From Fibrobacter sp. (GTDB lineage Bacteria > Fibrobacterota > Fibrobacteria > Fibrobacterales > Fibrobacteraceae), in contig JAKSIJ010000004.1 in the NCBI GenBank assembly GCA_024398875.1, forward strand, positions 1 through 64,000: DNA of 64,000 bases, in the 5' to 3' direction. The position numbers were made by a program, and so were the translations under genes. The notes below the pieces were generated by a model. It searched no databases and was not told the DNA's origin. It saw only the letters and a list, made by a program, of their open reading frames with translations. Shown piece after piece: positions 34,640 to 43,764 of the stretch. How positions within the stretch are numbered: position 1 is the first letter of the stretch; each line of letters starts with the position of its first letter.

Positions 34640-35107
34640 CTAATTATGCATTTTAAATTTTGAATTGTTTGCCCTCGATTGTGCCAGTTTTTCTGCGCAG
34701 GGCTTGCTTTGCCGCAAAATCTTCGTCAAGGCGCTAGGAGTGATCCCGAAAGCCGCTGCCGCCGCCTTCACATCGCCGTTTTTCGTGGCCATAATGTCAA
34801 AAACATGGGCCACAAATAGCGGAAATTGGGGATTGCTGGTTTGAATGTGCCCGTTACTTCCAGGGAAGGCCATTTCTACGGCTGGCGGAGTTTCCCGCAC
34901 TTTCAGGGCCAGGGCCATCTGCATCCGATGCAGCGCATGGACCTTGTTTTCCTTGGCGCTTCTCCCTTCACAGGATTTGATTTCTAAATTGTAGGCATTA
35001 AGACGGAGCCAAACTCCGGTGTTGGTCTTGTTCCGGTGCTGGCCTCCGGGCCCACTACCTTGGAAACCTTTGGCGGTACATGCCCCCAAAAGTTGGTCAA
35101 GGGTCAT
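34640..35107 (-). CDS. GGQ release-factor-like protein with C-terminal Fis-like helix-turn-helix
   Basis: 155 residues from the ATG at 35107 (MTLDQLL); an in-frame ATG at 35131 would add eight. It has an RF-1-type domain with the peptidyl-tRNA hydrolysis motif GSGPGGQHRNKT (about 20-31), so it can in principle release stalled peptides, as ArfB and RF-H do, but there is no codon-recognition domain. In ArfB the C-terminus is a basic mRNA-channel tail. Here residues about 112-140 read as a Fis-type helix-turn-helix, GDVKAAAAAFGITPSALTKIL. The last eight residues (NSKFKMHN) are encoded by an AT-rich dispersed repeat. The reading frame continues upstream antisense to the lipoprotein gene, which I regard as chance. 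Confidence 0.75.
   Translation of the reverse strand: MTLDQLLGACTAKGFQGSGPGGQHRNKTNTGVWLRLNAYNLEIKSCEGRSAKENKVHALHRMQMALALKVRETPPAVEMAFPGSNGHIQTSNPQFPLFVAHVFDIMATKNGDVKAAAAAFGITPSALTKILRQSKPCAEKLAQSRANNSKFKMHN
34642..34668. repeat. AT-rich repeat that forms the tail of the GGQ gene
   Basis: AATTATGCATTTTAAATTTTGAATTG, related to tracts at 3160-3192 and 22602-22634. It supplies the last sense codons and the stop of the GGQ gene. Confidence 0.5.
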
Positions 35108-35125
35108 ATTTAGAAAGGTGTCGCG

Positions 35126-35866
35126 ATGCATATTGTGAAAAATAACATTCTTGCCTTGCTGTTGGCGATGTCTGCCGCATTTTTTGCGGCTTGTGCAGGC
35201 ACTGCTGAAAATAACGGCGATGCTGTTACTGAACAGAAGGCTTACGAACAGCAGCAGAATGCCGGCGAAAAAGATGCCAAGTATCAGGAGCGTTTGCAGG
35301 ATAAGCAGGCCATGCTGGAATCCATGTTTGCAAATTTCCTGGATGCAGTGCGGAACAATGCCTCGGCAGAAGTCCTCTATGAATTCTTGACGGATACCTC
35401 GGAATACTGGCTGGATACTTTGGAGAATCACGCCCGCAGCTACGATGCGGATGCTCTGGATACTTGCCAGTTTTATGAGGCTTATGCCATCATTCTCTAC
35501 CGCCTTTACGAGCGCGAACACTTGTGGGAAACCGACGACGACCGCATGTTGTTCCTCTTCCTTTCCAAGAGCGGCATGTTGGAACGCTTTACCCAGTTGA
35601 ATCTGGGCCCGCTGGAATACAAAAACGACCGCGGAAGCGTGGGCCTTGCTAGCAGCCCCAAGGTGCCGATTATGTTGTTTGAATGGGATGATACGGCTTG
35701 GAAGTTGAATCTGCCGGAAACATTGCCGCTCATCACCAAGGGCATAGAATCCATTGCGGTGAAGAAGAAGTGGACCAATCGGAAGTTGGCGCTCTACTGG
35801 ATTGAAAAAGAATACCACATGACCTATTCCCGTTTGGACGAATCCCTGCTGGATCCGATTTTCTAA
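35126..35866 (+). CDS. Predicted lipoprotein, unknown function
   Basis: 246 residues, not recognised. The lipobox AFFAAC (Cys about 23) follows a short basic N-terminus and hydrophobic core, so lipidation is expected. The mature part begins with a Gln/Glu/Lys coiled stretch (about 35-70), then a compact region rich in Tyr, Trp and Asp (LYEFLTDTSEYWLDTL; AIILYRLYEREHLWETDDDR). One base separates its stop from the next ATG. The start codon lies 18 bases upstream of the divergent GGQ gene start, so both genes must share a very small promoter space or be read from inside each other. Confidence 0.8.
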   Translation: MHIVKNNILALLLAMSAAFFAACAGTAENNGDAVTEQKAYEQQQNAGEKDAKYQERLQDKQAMLESMFANFLDAVRNNASAEVLYEFLTDTSEYWLDTLENHARSYDADALDTCQFYEAYAIILYRLYEREHLWETDDDRMLFLFLSKSGMLERFTQLNLGPLEYKNDRGSVGLASSPKVPIMLFEWDDTAWKLNLPETLPLITKGIESIAVKKKWTNRKLALYWIEKEYHMTYSRLDESLLDPIF

Positions 35867-35867
35867 G

Positions 35868-36800
35868 ATGCGTTCCCTATTCCAAACAGTTTACGTTCTC
35901 GTTATTGTAGCTTGTGCTATGGCGTTTGCTGCCCCGGCGCAGTCATCGTCCAAAGTCTCGGCGCAATCTTTGCCCAAGGCTTCGACGCCGTCTTCTCAAA
36001 AAAAGTTAGTCTCGGCTAACATTTATGGTGCCGTGGATTCCAAGACGCCATTTAGCAGTGACCGCCTCTTTGCTGTTCTTGATTCTGTTGGCGGTGCAGG
36101 AACCTGGATGGAGTGGGATGTGAATGGTGTTAAAGACCCGAGCGTGATGGCTGCCATCGAGCCTCTTCTAGAGGCAAAACGTAATCCAGAAATGGTGTGG
36201 GTTCTTTCGGAGAGAGAGAAACCTCTCGTCTCGATTCTTGTTCCCAAGGGAGCAGGCGAGGTGCTGCTGTTTTACGAGCTGCAAACTCTAGATGCTACGC
36301 CAGAGCCATTAAAGATGAATATGGTTCTCACTCCGGATGTGGTGTTCCGCGACTATCGCCAGGTTTCTCCGTCGGAATTCGTCCATCTGGATAAGCCCAC
36401 TTTGAAAGTGATGGTGACAGACAAGCAAATCCGTTTCACTTATGAGAATCCCGATAAGACTCCTCTCCGGTTCGATTCGGATTTCTCCAAGAAATCATTT
36501 GTAGAGAAGCGGAGTGAAGTCCGTGATTACATGGATTACTTGAAATACGATTATTCTCTCATGTTGCGCGCATTCATCCAGTCCACCCGGGCCCTTTTCA
36601 ACTGGCAACCCTGGCATTGGTATATGACTTCCTGGAATGAAAAGTTTGTCATTACAGCGGCTGAGGTGGAGGCGATTCTCACTAAAGGTGTGAAGCCTGA
36701 ATATTTTACGGTATTCAAGGCGAAAACCGTAGGCGGGGAAGTGGTAGAGTTTAGAACCACGGGGAATGGCTTTTTTGAATGCCTCATTACCAGCCCCTAA
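35868..36800 (+). CDS. Exported protein of unknown function
   Basis: 310 residues, not recognised. Signal peptide MRSLFQTVYVLVIVACAMAFA-AP, then a Ser/Lys/Ala linker (about 25-48) and a soluble domain with many beta-strand-like stretches (AVDSKTPFSSDRLFAVLDSV; VLTPDVVFRDYRQVSPSEFV). No known catalytic motif. It starts one base after the lipoprotein stop and ends 32 bases before the PorU-like gene, so the three may serve one envelope function. Confidence 0.78.
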   Translation: MRSLFQTVYVLVIVACAMAFAAPAQSSSKVSAQSLPKASTPSSQKKLVSANIYGAVDSKTPFSSDRLFAVLDSVGGAGTWMEWDVNGVKDPSVMAAIEPLLEAKRNPEMVWVLSEREKPLVSILVPKGAGEVLLFYELQTLDATPEPLKMNMVLTPDVVFRDYRQVSPSEFVHLDKPTLKVMVTDKQIRFTYENPDKTPLRFDSDFSKKSFVEKRSEVRDYMDYLKYDYSLMLRAFIQSTRALFNWQPWHWYMTSWNEKFVITAAEVEAILTKGVKPEYFTVFKAKTVGGEVVEFRTTGNGFFECLITSP

Positions 36801-36820
36801 TTTCCGATGCTCCTATTTTG

Positions 36821-36828
36821 TATCTTTG
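36821..36828 (+). promoter_or_regulatory. TAnnTTTG promoter element before the PorU-like gene
   Basis: TATCTTTG ends five bases before the GTG start at 36833. If used like the Bacteroidota -7 box, the mRNA begins at or almost at the start codon. No -33 TTG is seen at the usual spacing. Confidence 0.4.
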
Positions 36829-36832
36829 AATA

Positions 36833-39800
36833 GTGCAGTTGACCCATAAAATCTGGATATTTGTTTTTGTTTGCAGTGTAGCGGCTTTCGCTTTCTCGGC
36901 TACGGGCGCGAGTGCTCTTCGTCGTAGTGCGGGAGCGGAGATTCCGGATGTGAACTTCCTGGCGGAATTTTTGGTGGGCGATAAAGATGTGGCAACTACT
37001 GAGGAAGATGGTCTTTATGCGGTGGATTTCAATTCCATCCGCACGGCGATGCTTCCTTTCCAGCGGCAGGGAGAATTGGATGGTATTCCGGTAGAGAAAC
37101 TTTGCGTCTATGGCGCGAGCCCGGATACGCTTTCGGATGTTGCCCCAGGAACGATTGGCCGTATTCCGGCTCAGATTTTTGAAATCCCTATAGAGGTGCG
37201 GGACCATTCCAAGGGCTCTTCTACTCCCAACGGAATTTTTGATGATGGTGATACCATTCTCTTTGTGGGTTATGGAACATCCTTCTGGAAGCGCATCAGT
37301 CAAGAAGTTCCTGGTTTTGTAGATGGCAAGATGGACTACTACCATTCCACTTCGCCCTATTCCTTCTATCAGCACTTCCAGTTTGGCTATAAAAATTCCG
37401 GTGCGGGAACCCGCCTATCGCAAAAAGTTAAATCTCCGGCCGGCTCTGGTAAGCCTGTGGAGTGGATGCGTTATGTTCGGGCTGAAAAGGATTTGATTCT
37501 TCGGGATTCCTATTTTGAGAAGACTGCAGATTGGGAAAGCGGAACAGGGAAGGAATGGTTCTGGATATGGCATTCCCGTTTGGAAACGACTGCATTGACG
37601 GGAGCTACTTTGAATATGCCTCAAACGGTTTCTTTGCCTGGGCGTATTGATGGTGGTCGGGAATATGTGGGCGTGACATTTTTTCCCTATCGTTCCGTTC
37701 ATACCTCATCTGCCGAGAAGGAAAATGACCAAAGAGTGGTTTTGGATTTGTCTTCGCAAACATATGAAGAACGAATGGAAGGGGTGCAATTTGATTTAAC
37801 TGTTAACGGGAAAAAATGGGAAAAATCTAGGGCGAAACTTATTCCAGGCAATACGTTCTTTTTTGAAAAAGCAGGTTTGAAAAGCGAAAAAAATGATTAC
37901 AGTTTAACGCTTCTTCCAAACGACTTTCAGTATGACCGTTTTGATGGTTATACAGTCGCATATCAGTGGAATCCCGTCGTGGAGTCTGCGGAGTGGTTGT
38001 TGCCGGGAAAGGTTTCTGGTGTGATTCAAGTCCCTGTGCCAGCAGGAACGTCCGTGATGAAGTTTGTGAACTTAAAACCTGTGGGCATTTTGAATACGCA
38101 GAACGGTGCTGCCAAGGATAGTGTTTCTGCAGAGGATGATGTCCGTTATCTTGCCTATAAATCAAGTTCATCGAAAATGGTGGCGAAGGTGGAGTCTCAC
38201 CCGGTTCAGCCGAGCGGCGTGCTTTCCAACCTTTCCAAAATCAATTCAAAAACAAAATATCTGATTATCGCTCCCGATGAATTTTTAGATGCCGCAGTCT
38301 CTTTAGGACAATTCCGTTCTGATGGTTCTGCGGTTATGAAAATTCCGACTACAGTTGTTTCTGTGAACGATATCTATCGCAATTATACAGGAGGCTCACT
38401 TTCTCCATCCGCAATCCGCAATTATATCGCGTACGTCCATTCTGTTTGTCCCGATTTGAAGTGGGTGCTACTCGCGGGTTCTGGCCATTACGATTATCGT
38501 GGCGTGAATTCTAAATTAGGAAAAATCAATATTCCTCCATATGAAAGAGAATCTTCAGTGACGGAAGACTTTTATGCGGCTCTGGATTCGGGAGAATTTG
38601 TTCGCTATGGGAATTACGACTTGGATGTGGCTGTGGGGCGCCTTCCTGTTTCTACGCCTGTGGAATTCGCCAATTATATCGAAAAGGCAAAGCAGTATGA
38701 AAAATTGGGAAGTTTTGATCATTCGGAATGGCGGTCAACATTGTTGTTGGCTGCAGATGATGCGCGCAACGGCATTGTGATTGATCGCTCAATGCATACG
38801 ACTTATCAAGAGGGAATTGCTGGTGTAATAGACAGTCTTTCGGATAGTCAGGGGGCACGCTGGCGTGCTCGAAAAATTTACTTGATTGATTATGACTGGG
38901 ATGCAGCTGGTCAGAAAAAGGATGCAGTGGAAGATTTCTTGAATATTTTGAATCAGGGAGCGTTGCTCACCACTTATTTTGGGCACGGTTCCATGACGGA
39001 TTGGGCTTCGGAAGGACTTTTGAAAGCGAGCTATATTTCCAAACTGAACAACAAAGGCCGTTATACGATTTTGGGCTCTTTCTCCTGTACGGTGGCACGA
39101 TTTGATAAGGGCGACGCCCGTTCACTTTCTGAAGATTTTGTGCTAGCATCTAATTCTGGTTCTATTGCTTCTGTAGGGGCCATGCGGGATACCTACGCTA
39201 CATTTAATTTGGGCTTTGGCAAGGCTTTTGTTTTAAATCTCTTAAAAACGCCTGGAATTACTATTGGCGAAGCTTTTGTTGCGGCAAAAAAACAAAGTAA
39301 GCCGGGCTATTCTGAGCAACGTTATAATGATGAACATTATGTGCTTATTGGAGAACCCGTAATTCAAATGCCGGCTCCATCTTTGAAGGTTTCTATGGAT
39401 GAAAAGTTGGATACTATCAAGGCTTTGGACAAGATGCGCATTGCTGGAACTGTTCGTGGAATTTCAAAGGGCTATGTCAACTTGTCGTTGCGTGAAGGTC
39501 GCTATAGCAAGCGTTTATATTTGGGCCTGGATGATATTGAGGATGACTCCATTGATGTAGCTTTTGAAGGCCCGCTGATTTATTCCGAGGAAGTCCCTGT
39601 GGTAGGCGGCCGTTTTGAAACGGAATTAATCACTCCGCGAAAGATCGCCTTTGGCGATACGGCTGCGGAACTTACCGCATGGGCCTATTCTGCGGATAAT
39701 CCTGCGGTGGGCCGCTATTTGCAGAAGCATATTGCAATTGCGGGTGTTTCCGCTTATGCGGATTCCATTCACGACAACACGCCGCCGGCGGTGCAAATCC

Positions 39801-40447
39801 AGACATGCTACGGCGGCGGTGTTCCTACGGGATTCTCTGACGGGCAAGTTGTGAAGCTCCAGTCTCCGGCATGCCTCCAGATTGTGGTGGAGGATTCTAC
39901 TGCCATCGATTATCGCGAGGAAGCGGATGAGGGAATCTCTTTTGAGGTTGTGGGCGTGGAAAATCCCTTCCATCCCTGGCCCTACATCGAACAGAATTCT
40001 AAACGGGCTGTAGCACGCATGACATTTGCCGCGGCATCTTATCCGGAAGGAAAATACCTCTTCAAGGTTCGCGCCCACGATGTGTTGGGGAACGAAACTG
40101 TGAAATCCGTGAATGTGGAAATCACGGGCGAGATGAAGGCGGGTCTTGCCGATGTGTTCAACATTCCCAATCCCATGGGAAAGAAGGGGACAACCTTCTA
40201 TTTCAAGAATCTGGCAGTGGATCGAGCTTCCAGCGTGGACATTTTTATCTATAATCAAAATGGTCGTCTGGTGAAGGTCATCAAAAATGCTGTTTCTGGT
40301 GTAACCCACTGGGATGGCCGGGATAATTTCGGAAGGCTTTTGGCCAACGGGCTTTATCATTACGTGGTCCGCAGTCGCGTGGCCGCTACAGAAGATTTCA
40401 AGAAAAAAACTTGGACTAAAAAACAGAAGTTGCTGATTTCGAGGTAG
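36833..40447 (+). CDS. porU: PorU-like C25 (gingipain-family) peptidase with FlgD-like C-terminal domain
   Basis: 1204 residues. Signal peptide IWIFVFVCSVAAFAFSATGASA, then beta-rich N-terminal domains. The C25 peptidase fold (about 480-840) has KYLIIAPDEFLDAA, KWVLLAGSGHYDYR, the catalytic His in YFGHGSMTDW (about 717) and catalytic Cys in LGSFSCTVARFD (about 752). The C-terminal 90 residues form a FlgD-like Ig domain with NIPNPM and a YNQNGRLVKV ... HWDGRDNFGRLLANGLYHY pattern. PorU is the sortase of the type IX secretion system; a secreted gingipain-like protease is the alternative. Start: GTG at 36833, or TTG at 36839; there is no ATG before the signal peptide. The next gene begins two bases after the stop. 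Confidence 0.86.
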   Translation: MQLTHKIWIFVFVCSVAAFAFSATGASALRRSAGAEIPDVNFLAEFLVGDKDVATTEEDGLYAVDFNSIRTAMLPFQRQGELDGIPVEKLCVYGASPDTLSDVAPGTIGRIPAQIFEIPIEVRDHSKGSSTPNGIFDDGDTILFVGYGTSFWKRISQEVPGFVDGKMDYYHSTSPYSFYQHFQFGYKNSGAGTRLSQKVKSPAGSGKPVEWMRYVRAEKDLILRDSYFEKTADWESGTGKEWFWIWHSRLETTALTGATLNMPQTVSLPGRIDGGREYVGVTFFPYRSVHTSSAEKENDQRVVLDLSSQTYEERMEGVQFDLTVNGKKWEKSRAKLIPGNTFFFEKAGLKSEKNDYSLTLLPNDFQYDRFDGYTVAYQWNPVVESAEWLLPGKVSGVIQVPVPAGTSVMKFVNLKPVGILNTQNGAAKDSVSAEDDVRYLAYKSSSSKMVAKVESHPVQPSGVLSNLSKINSKTKYLIIAPDEFLDAAVSLGQFRSDGSAVMKIPTTVVSVNDIYRNYTGGSLSPSAIRNYIAYVHSVCPDLKWVLLAGSGHYDYRGVNSKLGKINIPPYERESSVTEDFYAALDSGEFVRYGNYDLDVAVGRLPVSTPVEFANYIEKAKQYEKLGSFDHSEWRSTLLLAADDARNGIVIDRSMHTTYQEGIAGVIDSLSDSQGARWRARKIYLIDYDWDAAGQKKDAVEDFLNILNQGALLTTYFGHGSMTDWASEGLLKASYISKLNNKGRYTILGSFSCTVARFDKGDARSLSEDFVLASNSGSIASVGAMRDTYATFNLGFGKAFVLNLLKTPGITIGEAFVAAKKQSKPGYSEQRYNDEHYVLIGEPVIQMPAPSLKVSMDEKLDTIKALDKMRIAGTVRGISKGYVNLSLREGRYSKRLYLGLDDIEDDSIDVAFEGPLIYSEEVPVVGGRFETELITPRKIAFGDTAAELTAWAYSADNPAVGRYLQKHIAIAGVSAYADSIHDNTPPAVQIQTCYGGGVPTGFSDGQVVKLQSPACLQIVVEDSTAIDYREEADEGISFEVVGVENPFHPWPYIEQNSKRAVARMTFAAASYPEGKYLFKVRAHDVLGNETVKSVNVEITGEMKAGLADVFNIPNPMGKKGTTFYFKNLAVDRASSVDIFIYNQNGRLVKVIKNAVSGVTHWDGRDNFGRLLANGLYHYVVRSRVAATEDFKKKTWTKKQKLLISR

Positions 40448-40449
40448 TT

Positions 40450-41328
40450 ATGGATTTGAGAGAAAAACCGGGAAAGATTCAGAAGATGATGGAGTTCTTG
40501 CTCCGTCTCCGGTTAATTTTTGTTTTGATTCTGGTGGTGCTTTCCGTCATATTTGCGGCAACCCGTTGGCAGGCCATGAGCACTCTCCCTTTAGCCGCAT
40601 CGGAATCAATGGGAATGTGGCTTGCGGAATTGCAGGGCTTTAGCGGTTTTTGGGCCTCGGCGCAGTATTTGAGTGTCGCTGCCATCGCCATGATTGTATT
40701 ACACTTTGTATTTACGGGTGCGAAAGGGGGAATCGCTGGTCTTATTGGTTTTGTAGGCATGATTGGCGCTGTTTTTGCATTGGCGGGCTCCGATGGAATG
40801 CAGTTCATCTTTTTGGGAGCCTTCGCAGTTGTTGCCTTGATTCTTTTGCTAGCGGCAAAGTGGAGTGCTGCTTGCGTGTTGTTCCCGTTTGCTCTTTCTT
40901 GGGTGTTTTTGACAGGGGTTTTGAATTGGACTTTCGCGACCTTTGGAATTAACGCAAGCCAAACGGCTGTTCTTTGGACGGCCTTTAGCGTAATTGGTTT
41001 TTCTTCCTCTTTGGCTTTTGCGTTTTCTTGTGGCGGGCTGCTTGGTTCTGGGAATCCTCAGGCCGGTTCCATTGTCCGCGCTGCAAAGAAAGCGATTCTC
41101 CCTGTGACCATTTCTTCTCTTCTCGCCCTTGTGGCAATCCTTGTAGATTCTGGCATGGTGGATGGAATGGGTATTGGTAAGACCGCTGCCTTGTGGGCTG
41201 AATTCAACGTGTGGTTCTTTGCCTTCCTCATTCCCATAAGCTCATTCGCCCCTTGGGAACGGCTCCGCTCCAAGAGCCGTAGGGTAGAAATGAAGAAGGG
41301 TTCTTCCAAGAAAAATTCCAGCAAATAG
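40450..41328 (+). CDS. Polytopic membrane protein, possibly MMPL/RND-related
   Basis: 292 residues with about eight hydrophobic helices. Not recognised with confidence. The N-terminal LLRLRLIFVLILVVLSVIFAATRW resembles the first helix of RND/MMPL exporters, and AAKKAILPVTISSLLALVAILVDS resembles a later helix pair of that family, but the large periplasmic domains are missing. The C-terminus is basic (KKGSSKKNSSK). It starts two bases after the PorU-like gene, and the RluA gene follows at 7 bases. Confidence 0.65.
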   Translation: MDLREKPGKIQKMMEFLLRLRLIFVLILVVLSVIFAATRWQAMSTLPLAASESMGMWLAELQGFSGFWASAQYLSVAAIAMIVLHFVFTGAKGGIAGLIGFVGMIGAVFALAGSDGMQFIFLGAFAVVALILLLAAKWSAACVLFPFALSWVFLTGVLNWTFATFGINASQTAVLWTAFSVIGFSSSLAFAFSCGGLLGSGNPQAGSIVRAAKKAILPVTISSLLALVAILVDSGMVDGMGIGKTAALWAEFNVWFFAFLIPISSFAPWERLRSKSRRVEMKKGSSKKNSSK

Positions 41329-41335
41329 TGCGTCT

Positions 41336-42376
41336 ATGCTTCGAGACATGTTCTTTGAAAGCGAAATCCGCCCGGAACAAAACGGGCATTTGCTGCTGGA
41401 CAGTCTAGCGGAGCGCTTTACTTATCATACCCGAGAAGAGTGGATTGATCGTCTGAAAACGGGGAAGGTCACCTTGAATGGCGAGGTGGCGAATCCAGAA
41501 AGTGTGGCACACAAGGGCGATAAGGTGGTTTATCACATCGAGAATTACGAAGAGCCCGATGTACCGACGGATTTTGAAACTGTTTTTGAGGACGATGAAT
41601 TCCTGCTGGTGTCAAAGCCTGCGGGAATCCCGGTGCACCATACGGGGCGAATCTTCTACAATACTTTTACCGCAGTTGTTCGGCGTGCAACGGATTGCGA
41701 GACGGCGACTCCAATGCATCGCTTGGACCGCGACACCGGCGGCTTGATGCTTTTTGCCAAAGACAGCGATACGGCGGCCAGGTTCCAGAAAAATCTGGAC
41801 CGGATTCTGCTCCGGAAGTTTTATCTGGCAGTGGTGCCGGGCGAATTCCCTGCAGAAGAAATCCGCTGCGACATGCCATTGCGTGAGAATCCGGCAAGCC
41901 CATTGCGGGTAAAGATGTTCCATTTTGAAGATGGAAAACCTTGCAGTACTGTTTTCAGAAGGCTTGCTGTTTTTGATGCGACAGACTCGTCCGCGATGCT
42001 ATTTTCTGCGAACCTACCGCCTGCGAATCTACCGCCCGCGAAGTTGTCGTCAGTGAAACTTTCTCTTGTGGAATGCGAACTCCTCACTGGCCGAAAGCAT
42101 CAGATTCGTGCCCACCTTGCAGAGCTAGGCTTCCCGATTGTGGGCGACCGCCTTTACAGCCATGAGGGAAAATACTACGAGAAAATGGCCCGCGGTGGAG
42201 GCCTTACAGAAGAGGATTTCGCCGTACTGGGCAGTCACTTCCAAATGCTTTTTGCCTACAAAGTAGAACTTCTTCTTCCTTATTGGAATGAGCCTAGAAC
42301 GTTTACCAGTTCCTTCTTCCCGAAGGATATGGCCGATTTGCTTGAGGCTTACCACTGGAGCGTTCCCACGCCATAG
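41336..42376 (+). CDS. RluA-family pseudouridine synthase
   Basis: 346 residues. An S4-like RNA-binding start (about 28-75, REEWIDRLKTGKVTLNGEV), then the synthase domain with HRLDRDTGG (catalytic Asp at about 125) and the later LLTGRKHQIRAHLAELGFPIVGD. It modifies uridine in rRNA or tRNA; which site is unclear. A 16-residue repeat-like insert, ANLPPANLPPAKLSSVKL (about 224-241), sits just before the final core strand. The last 28 bases overlap the 3' end of the convergent Wzi-like gene. Confidence 0.91.
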   Translation: MLRDMFFESEIRPEQNGHLLLDSLAERFTYHTREEWIDRLKTGKVTLNGEVANPESVAHKGDKVVYHIENYEEPDVPTDFETVFEDDEFLLVSKPAGIPVHHTGRIFYNTFTAVVRRATDCETATPMHRLDRDTGGLMLFAKDSDTAARFQKNLDRILLRKFYLAVVPGEFPAEEIRCDMPLRENPASPLRVKMFHFEDGKPCSTVFRRLAVFDATDSSAMLFSANLPPANLPPAKLSSVKLSLVECELLTGRKHQIRAHLAELGFPIVGDRLYSHEGKYYEKMARGGGLTEEDFAVLGSHFQMLFAYKVELLLPYWNEPRTFTSSFFPKDMADLLEAYHWSVPTP

Positions 42377-43764
42377 GCGCGGTAGCCTTCGTAATCCCCG
42401 AAGAAGCGGGTGTAGCCTGCCCGCACAGAAACCCAGTTCCAGGGCTCGAGGCTGAGAATTCCTCCCAGCTCTTGATACTTCAAAGTGGATTTGTCATTCA
42501 GGAACTTCTTGTCTATGGCGTCATCGGGCCCGTGAATGTCGGTAAGGTTTCCACCGAAGGCAGTATCTTTAGCAACAGCTCCCGCGACAAGTGTTCCGCG
42601 GACAAAACCGATTTCTGCAGAAAGCTCGGAATGAATTTCCTGGGCGTTGGGCCCTAAATCGCTACCCAGACTTTGAGCGTAGCTGGCGTATGTGTATCCG
42701 CCACCCTTGTGATGAGTGTAAACCCAGGGCTCAATGCGGGTGTATTCTCCATACCAATCAACTGTCGCTGGCCCTAGCCGTAGGCCATCGCGGGCAACGC
42801 CAACAGTTGCCGCCCACTTGTTTCCCCACCATCCATCATCAAACATGCTGGTAGGTGACTTCATGTCATCCCACAAAAGTTCACCGTAAAATTCCCAGCC
42901 AGGAATGGTCTTCACGCTCAAATCAAAAGCGAGGGAAATGTTGTCCTGATCGCCTTGCAGGTGCTCCTGGAAAACATAGGGGACAAAGGGAATCACATAA
43001 GCCCACTCAAAATCCCGGTCTGTACTATCGGCATCCAGGTTGGGATTAGTACCTGCATTTTCAGTAGTGCTTCCGTAGAGGGATGTCTCAGAAAGTCCGA
43101 GGGTGATATTCTTGGGAAGATTCAAATCCAGACGATGGGCGTGCAGGTATTTTCCGAAGTTTTTCTTCTCAAAAAGTTTTGCGGCATATTGAGTATAGAC
43201 AATAGGGCCAATCTCAAACTGGTAACCAAAATAGGGTGTGGGTGCCGGGTCCGGAATCCGGCTGCTGCTATCTTGCCATGGGCGGTAGTTGCTTTGTTCT
43301 CCGCGGAGAATCACGTGATTGTGGCGTGCCGGGCCCCAGGTAAGGTAGTCAAAGCCTGCCATGAGCGTGAGGGGGGCTAGGCTATAGCTGGCGCTTGCGG
43401 CGAATAAATCCCAGGTGCGGCGGTTTTCGCTCTGCTTGTTGTAGGGAATGCCCTCGCTCGGGTTGTAAAAATTCCCTGCAATGTCCCGGTTGGTGTAGTC
43501 GGTGCTGACTTTTACTCGGGCGGCGTACTGAAACGCTTGCGTAAATTGCCCATCCAAAAACAGGCGAACTGACATGGAGTTGTCGTAGTGGGTGGGGGCG
43601 TTAGTCAGGTTGGTAATCGCCACGGAATCTACAAGTTGGGCATGGATGTTCAGCTCGTAGTTTTTGGCGGAATCCTGGAATGAAATATGTTTTTCTTCAA
43701 ATGCGAAAGCTGCCTGAGCTAAGAGGCACAGAAAAAGTAGCGCTTTGCATTTGTTTTTCAGCAT
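42349..43764 (-). CDS. Wzi-like capsule-assembly outer-membrane barrel (copy 1)
   Basis: 471 residues. Signal peptide MLKNKCKALLFLCLLAQAAFA, then a beta-barrel of alternating hydrophobic strands ending in a C-terminal aromatic (GVGTLQW). Segments such as MAGFDYLTWGPARHNHVIL, VPYVFQEHLQGDQDNISLAFD and WEFYGELLWDDMKSP match the layout of Wzi-type proteins, which hold capsule at the cell surface. It shares this layout with the protein at 56811 (FLDDMESP; YEFF) and both lie at the edge of a polysaccharide block. The stop lies inside the 3' end of the RluA gene. Confidence 0.8.
   Translation of the reverse strand: MLKNKCKALLFLCLLAQAAFAFEEKHISFQDSAKNYELNIHAQLVDSVAITNLTNAPTHYDNSMSVRLFLDGQFTQAFQYAARVKVSTDYTNRDIAGNFYNPSEGIPYNKQSENRRTWDLFAASASYSLAPLTLMAGFDYLTWGPARHNHVILRGEQSNYRPWQDSSSRIPDPAPTPYFGYQFEIGPIVYTQYAAKLFEKKNFGKYLHAHRLDLNLPKNITLGLSETSLYGSTTENAGTNPNLDADSTDRDFEWAYVIPFVPYVFQEHLQGDQDNISLAFDLSVKTIPGWEFYGELLWDDMKSPTSMFDDGWWGNKWAATVGVARDGLRLGPATVDWYGEYTRIEPWVYTHHKGGGYTYASYAQSLGSDLGPNAQEIHSELSAEIGFVRGTLVAGAVAKDTAFGGNLTDIHGPDDAIDKKFLNDKSTLKYQELGGILSLEPWNWVSVRAGYTRFFGDYEGYRAYGVGTLQW

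Follow-up and report, generated by a model that had tools for sequence, protein, structure and literature searches.

A PorU-like sortase locus of Fibrobacter and its candidate membrane partner

The 64,000-nucleotide stretch of Fibrobacter DNA that we analysed (the window) carries, at positions 35126 to 41328, a tight run of four genes that we consider, on balance, to be probably the operon of the PorU-like sortase of a Fibrobacter type IX-type secretion system (T9SS). In this reading the polytopic membrane protein encoded last in the run, P4, is a partner in the same step as the sortase, and the lipoprotein P1 and exported protein P2 encoded ahead of the sortase are later additions. Across most of the family, P4 is the sole companion to remain with PorU, and P1 and P2 are accordingly demoted. 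On present evidence we see here a lineage-specific form of an already known type of sortase locus whose membrane partner is unusual, and not a system of a new kind. Fibrobacter is a main cellulose degrader in herbivore guts, and the locus now allows the anchoring of its cellulases to be tested through a few genes.

All four genes lie on the forward strand. P1 (35126..35866) is a predicted lipoprotein of 246 residues with no over-cut-off match in Pfam or NCBIfam, and P2 (35868..36800) is an exported protein of 310 residues, assigned to no known family and without a convincing Pfam match, that has a conserved C-terminal motif around FNWQxWHW; both labels come from N-termini read by eye. The sortase gene (36833..40447, 1204 residues, GTG start) encodes a short form lacking the N-terminal prodomain, and P4 (40450..41328) is a protein of 292 residues. 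The gaps of 1, 32 and 2 bases between these co-directional genes are exactly those given in the original prediction, and the run of lipoprotein, exported protein, PorU-like sortase and polytopic protein that it described is real. Values of dN/dS against the nearest relative, L002, are low (P1 0.04, P2 0.11, PorU 0.06, P4 0.12), so that all four genes are constrained coding sequences under purifying selection, and the same gene order recurs in the Fibrobacter MAG loci L003 and L005 and in the sampled genus, which argues that the run is not a product of chance. Both P1 and P2 are present in L002, in which the codon preceding the GTG start of PorU is ATG, as against ATA in the window. Among named records the closest are four Fibrobacter MAGs, of which three come from horse faeces and the other from a sheep omasum. 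Promoter- and terminator-like sites at the locus were no more frequent than in shuffled sequences. The structural model of P2 was poor (mean pLDDT 59, pTM 0.45) and was set aside; a fold search with it gave nothing usable.

The proposal that the C25 protein is the type IX sortase stands as a likeness. Against the T9SS sortase model NF033707 the window protein scored 359.9 bits (E 2.4e-107) and did not reach the cut-off of 420, and it is for this reason that we name it PorU-like rather than file it as PorU. Its Peptidase C25 domain (PF01364) scored 238 bits against a cut-off of 23 (E 2.6e-70). The protein matched the solved PorU of Porphyromonas gingivalis, 6za2 (E 1.6e-22), in an alignment covering roughly the C-terminal half of the window protein, and a 16-row profile of its relatives matched the same structure at E 7.3e-91 over profile positions 618-1334. 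His718 (codon 38984..38986, forward strand) and Cys752 (codon 39086..39088, forward strand) align to residues of the same kind in 6za2, where the His is the catalytic partner of the Cys, and both positions are invariant in the 8-row and 16-row alignments. If the 1156-residue chain of 6za2 begins at residue 3, the Cys aligned to Cys752 is C690, and C690A is the porU catalytic mutant (PMC5562754). The C25 protein of the window is therefore PorU-like, with its His/Cys pair intact. It shares with P. gingivalis PorU a CTD-like C-terminal Ig-like domain as well (approximate boundary 40130..40444, forward strand), to which the C-terminal part of 6za2 aligns and in which the FlgD_ig, CHU_C and Por_Secre_tail matches are weak and all under cut-off. 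Besides the shortfall against NF033707, it differs from the P. gingivalis protein in having P1, P2 and P4 as its neighbours. Another genome, G149, has a second PorU-like match (G149:C136:15959-18223), which lies downstream of P4 at a distance of about 1.9 kb.

Most other Fibrobacterota PorU frames are about 1300-1450 residues long, against the 1204 of the window protein. Six comparison PorUs carry, after the signal peptide, roughly 160 residues that are absent from both the window protein and L002. Compared with known structures, a profile of this N-terminal region from 16 sequences (A7) matched the Lys-gingipain prodomain 5mun (E 1.1e-5; next structure E 0.92), and PF08126 (Propeptide_C25) matched three of 16 long-form members (best E 6.7e-4). 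In long-form Fibrobacterota PorU the N-terminal domain thus resembles the gingipain prodomain. It is kept in all six long-frame comparison genomes and is absent from the window PorU and 11 relatives, namely L002 and all ten short-frame genomes checked. Profile A7 gave no match to 6za2 at E up to 1, so that neither 6za2 nor the window PorU shows the prodomain. In a PorU tree that left out seven rows in which the search pattern was not found, the 12 short forms fit one prodomain loss; the short-form junctions of the window pair differ from those of the other ten (L178-L187). The prodomain has been lost in a subset of Fibrobacter, in one event or in two, between which the low support (54/85) does not separate.

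The genome holds further T9SS genes, and the absence of such genes, which the original prediction gave as grounds for abandoning it, is not what we found. The sprA and porV genes and the T9SS C-terminal domains, whose co-occurrence with the locus was to be checked, are all represented over cut-off: the SprA/Sov translocon at G000:C4:31632-37274 (1150.5 bits, cut-off 200), the PorV family by seven matches (the best, in a 766-residue frame, at 116.1 bits over a cut-off of 90) and Por_Secre_tail (TIGR04183) by 29 matches, 26 of them over cut-off. Across 150 Fibrobacterota genomes, SprA was over cut-off in 144 and the PorV family in 146, while NF033707 matched in 149 and was over cut-off in 33. 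Among 14 control genomes the tail model exceeded its cut-off in one and SprA, the PorV family and NF033707 each in none, with sub-threshold matches to the PorV family in one genome and to NF033707 in two. As to the motor (PorL/PorM, or GldL/GldM), the best GldM match in the window's own genome was 11.4 bits (E 0.13; another at E 0.29) against a cut-off of 180. None of the 150 Fibrobacterota genomes had a GldL match over cut-off, and there were seven weak matches in frames of 406-790 residues. Neither model had a positive control genome, so the absence of the motor is not proven, and divergence could hide both proteins. With no canonical motor found, this secretion system may not be the same as that of Bacteroidota, and the apparent lack of a known motor prompts one to ask how the Fibrobacter system is powered.

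Earlier reports are consistent with a T9SS in this lineage. The tails of Fibrobacter succinogenes cellulases have been proposed as T9SS signals (PMC6851124), the species is among those studied for T9SS (PMC11285876), and BLAST evidence for T9SS in Fibrobacter has been called suggestive (PMC5837995). The phylum is named among possible or actual T9SS holders, with the Fibrobacter T9SS genes left unspecified in the available parts of those sources (PMC8754138, PMC11205867, PMC5837995, PMC12421860). Neither PorU nor a sortase is mentioned in the main text of PMC6851124, and PMC4704652 makes no mention of gliding, gldJ, gldL, sprA, a secretion system or porU. We found no paper on a Fibrobacter PorU in the literature searched.

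Scans of the 150 genomes detected P2 in 91, P1 in 100 and P4 in 86. We counted linkage from listed coordinates in 94 Fibrobacteraceae genomes wherever both genes of a pair were present, taking genus g1 as Fibrobacter and family f1 as Fibrobacteraceae. PorU and P4 are adjacent in 82 of 85 genomes, comprising 66/66 in Fibrobacter, 16/16 in eight other genera and 0/3 in g7, in which P4 lies on a different contig from PorU in the three genomes with both and is undetected in seven of ten. Adjacency of P2 and PorU is seen in 72 of 88 genomes and in four of ten genera (Fibrobacter, g2, g3 and g6; 0/16 in the six others), and that of P1 and P2 in 68 of 87, or 69 of 88 with two added rows (Fibrobacter 67/67, g3 2/3, elsewhere 0/18), which amounts to two of ten genera. 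Most of the unlinked cases are genes on separate contigs, which alone are little proof of separation; in the one-contig genome G032, P1 is found at 2.40 Mb, P2 at 2.87 Mb and PorU at 3.04 Mb, with distances of 0.17 to 0.64 Mb between them. The flanks of these genes also change. In four genera (L075, L078, L088, L089) P2 lies downstream of genes apparently for a dihydroorotate dehydrogenase, an exported protein and a PDZ-thioredoxin protein (family assignments were tested in L089 alone), and in two of the four PorU-P4 is joined after P2. P2 is also found before aldehyde dehydrogenase or VanZ-like genes, a VanZ-like gene standing 3' of the P2 homologues in g7, g8 and g9 (L088, L089, L093; VanZ named by eye), and P1 elsewhere lies beside a GGQ protein, also named by eye, and a NUDIX gene.

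Unlinked homologues in relatives, the other finding that was to count against the original prediction, therefore exist for P1 and P2, as G032 and the changing flanks attest, but P4 alone remains linked to PorU in the greater part of the family. The idea that the flanking proteins are secretion accessories consequently divides: it is a fair candidate role for P4, a possible one for P2 and a weak one for P1. P4 is the real partner candidate of PorU. P1 and P2 seem to have joined the run later than P4; in the simplest order of assembly, PorU-P4 would have gained P2 and after that P1. The sampled genomes outside Fibrobacteraceae still have SprA and PorU but yielded no P4, so PorU needs no P4 in general.

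The same observations bear on another explanation, that the run is a transcription unit of convenience in which PorU acts with PorV-type partners and P4, P1 and P2 share only its promoter. Such a unit would account for the other neighbourhoods of P1 and P2 (GGQ/NUDIX; dihydroorotate dehydrogenase/PDZ-thioredoxin; aldehyde dehydrogenase/VanZ-like) and for PorU occurring without detected P4 in the sampled genomes outside the family, but it sits poorly with a PorU-P4 adjacency that is kept in nine genera as the outer genes change. We take this explanation seriously without thinking it likely.

The description of P4 as polytopic is borne out by its hydropathy, which reveals 7-8 hydrophobic segments and no large loop. 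Its further description as MMPL-like finds some support at the level of the fold and none from family models, there being no MMPL match in Pfam or NCBIfam. Among 13 P4 proteins searched against Pfam at E up to 1, none matched MMPL, ACR_tran or SecD_SecF; eight other families were matched weakly, by one member each (best E 0.002). The AlphaFold2 model of P4, made from 5 rows, has a mean pLDDT of 68 and a pTM of 0.71. Foldseek matched this model to RND chains, SecDF included, with probability up to 0.98 and E 0.17 or worse, among unrelated low-probability chains. In VIA-align, P4 aligned to RND chains with Z 11.0-12.3 over 200-217 residues (about 55-277 of P4), bearing in mind that for helical bundles a Z under about 13 can reflect a common arrangement; RND chains fill the best 50 entries listed, and 195 chains have Z >= 8 against 206 with Z >= 5. 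The aligned range of AcrB, from about 377 to about 1033, takes in both RND halves, not one.

Profile comparison points weakly in the same direction. Aligned by hhalign to an MMPL profile of 30 uncleaned frames, some of them possibly wrong, P4 gave about 145 colinear columns with three of four master rows (score 21.4-23.2, E 0.06-0.11, probability under 1%) and 37 columns with the fourth, and of 150 shuffles four reached a score of 21.4 and five spanned 140 columns. The colinear stretch comprises the last five helices of P4, which presumably correspond to TM2-TM6 of the MMPL topology. With a SecDF profile, hhalign gave nothing above controls. An acid in TM4 is a feature of RND proteins; in the P4 helix that would be equivalent to RND TM4, with the equivalence taken from the hhalign comparison with MMPL, D or E is present in 11/11 examined sequences from other genera and 0/23 from Fibrobacter, the window protein having S. 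With the intramembrane acid lost, Fibrobacter P4 is probably no longer proton-driven. P4 may thus resemble the membrane domains of AcrB, MmpL3 and SecDF in its fold, alongside its weak colinear alignment with MMPL proteins and the acid of other genera, and is unlike them in its small size, its missing Pfam match, the loss of the acid in Fibrobacter and the lack of a periplasmic porter domain, in place of which only a short loop lies between TM1 and TM2. The model and alignments suggest, weakly to moderately, that P4 is an RND-like bundle without a periplasmic domain whose acid has been lost in Fibrobacter.

Two genomes have RND genes close to PorU. In G090 a full-length AcrB-like RND frame directly follows PorU (L154 6101-8728 and 8721-12773, stop-to-stop), its first Met one base past the PorU stop, and in G108 PorU is followed at a distance of about 1.5 kb by an MMPL frame. 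An RND profile found nothing in 16 other PorU regions outside the family. Descent of P4 from such a gene is a lead only, since it concerns two genomes with different RND types and none of the 16 other regions. A likeness of a G090 ORF (MVLRKRPAHLA) to the N-terminus of P4 was discarded, being in the wrong reading frame.

In P. gingivalis, surface PorU is a transpeptidase that removes the CTD and attaches the cargo to A-LPS, which PorZ delivers (PMC8545088). By our preferred reading, in which P4 partners the sortase, the Fibrobacter PorU would likewise reach the cell surface, free cargo such as cellulases of its C-terminal signal and tie that cargo to a surface anchor. A protein in the inner membrane cannot touch a surface enzyme, so P4 would act in this step from its place in that membrane, its most likely role being to help make or hand over the lipid-linked anchor used by PorU. 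We infer this function, and nothing ties P4 directly to an anchor lipid. P2, in the periplasm, may assist, and the lipoprotein P1 may only be co-regulated.

A more elaborate version of this scheme seems to us unlikely. It would have the Fibrobacterota T9SS consist of SprA, the PorV family and a PorU that bears the prodomain, with no canonical proton motor of GldL and GldM. The Fibrobacteraceae sortase would have acquired a dedicated, stripped-RND partner in the inner membrane, which in most genera is proton-linked and in Fibrobacter has become a scaffold or lipid handler without a motor. SecDF is an RND-type export aid, and P4 might in a similar manner aid the passage of PorU or of T9SS cargo through the inner membrane. 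That the RND-type proteins matched by Foldseek to the P4 model include SecDF would fit such a role, but an ordinary SecDF is already encoded in the genome (G000:C18), P4 lacks a periplasmic domain, its Fibrobacter members have no acid and hhalign found no likeness to SecDF above controls, all of which make it very unlikely. The idea that P4 contributes to a substitute energy source for a T9SS lacking GldL and GldM deserves hardly any credence, for although GldL was over cut-off in none of the 150 genomes and GldM was not over it in the window's own, and the acid is in all 11 P4 sequences examined outside Fibrobacter, the acid is missing from all 23 examined within it, P4 is undetected in the sampled genomes outside the family where SprA and PorU occur, and the motor models had no positive control.

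Upstream of the run, P1 meets a divergent GGQ release-factor-like gene (34640..35131, reverse strand, 163 residues), named by eye from its translation. The ATG codons of the two genes share the palindrome ATGCAT, at 35126-35131 in the window, 7864-7869 in L003 and 4705-4710 in L005, so that the upstream signals of each must fall within the other's gene; the GGQ gene adjoins P1 in L076 and L092 too. Downstream, a gene for an RluA-family pseudouridine synthase (41336-42376) starts 7 bases after P4. An RluA-like ORF also stands 3' of P4 in L002 and not in L003 or L005, where a YicC-like gene, identified by eye, follows P4 on the opposite strand in its place. A gene for a Wzi-family capsule assembly protein (42349-43764, reverse strand; PF14052) also lies near the putative operon.
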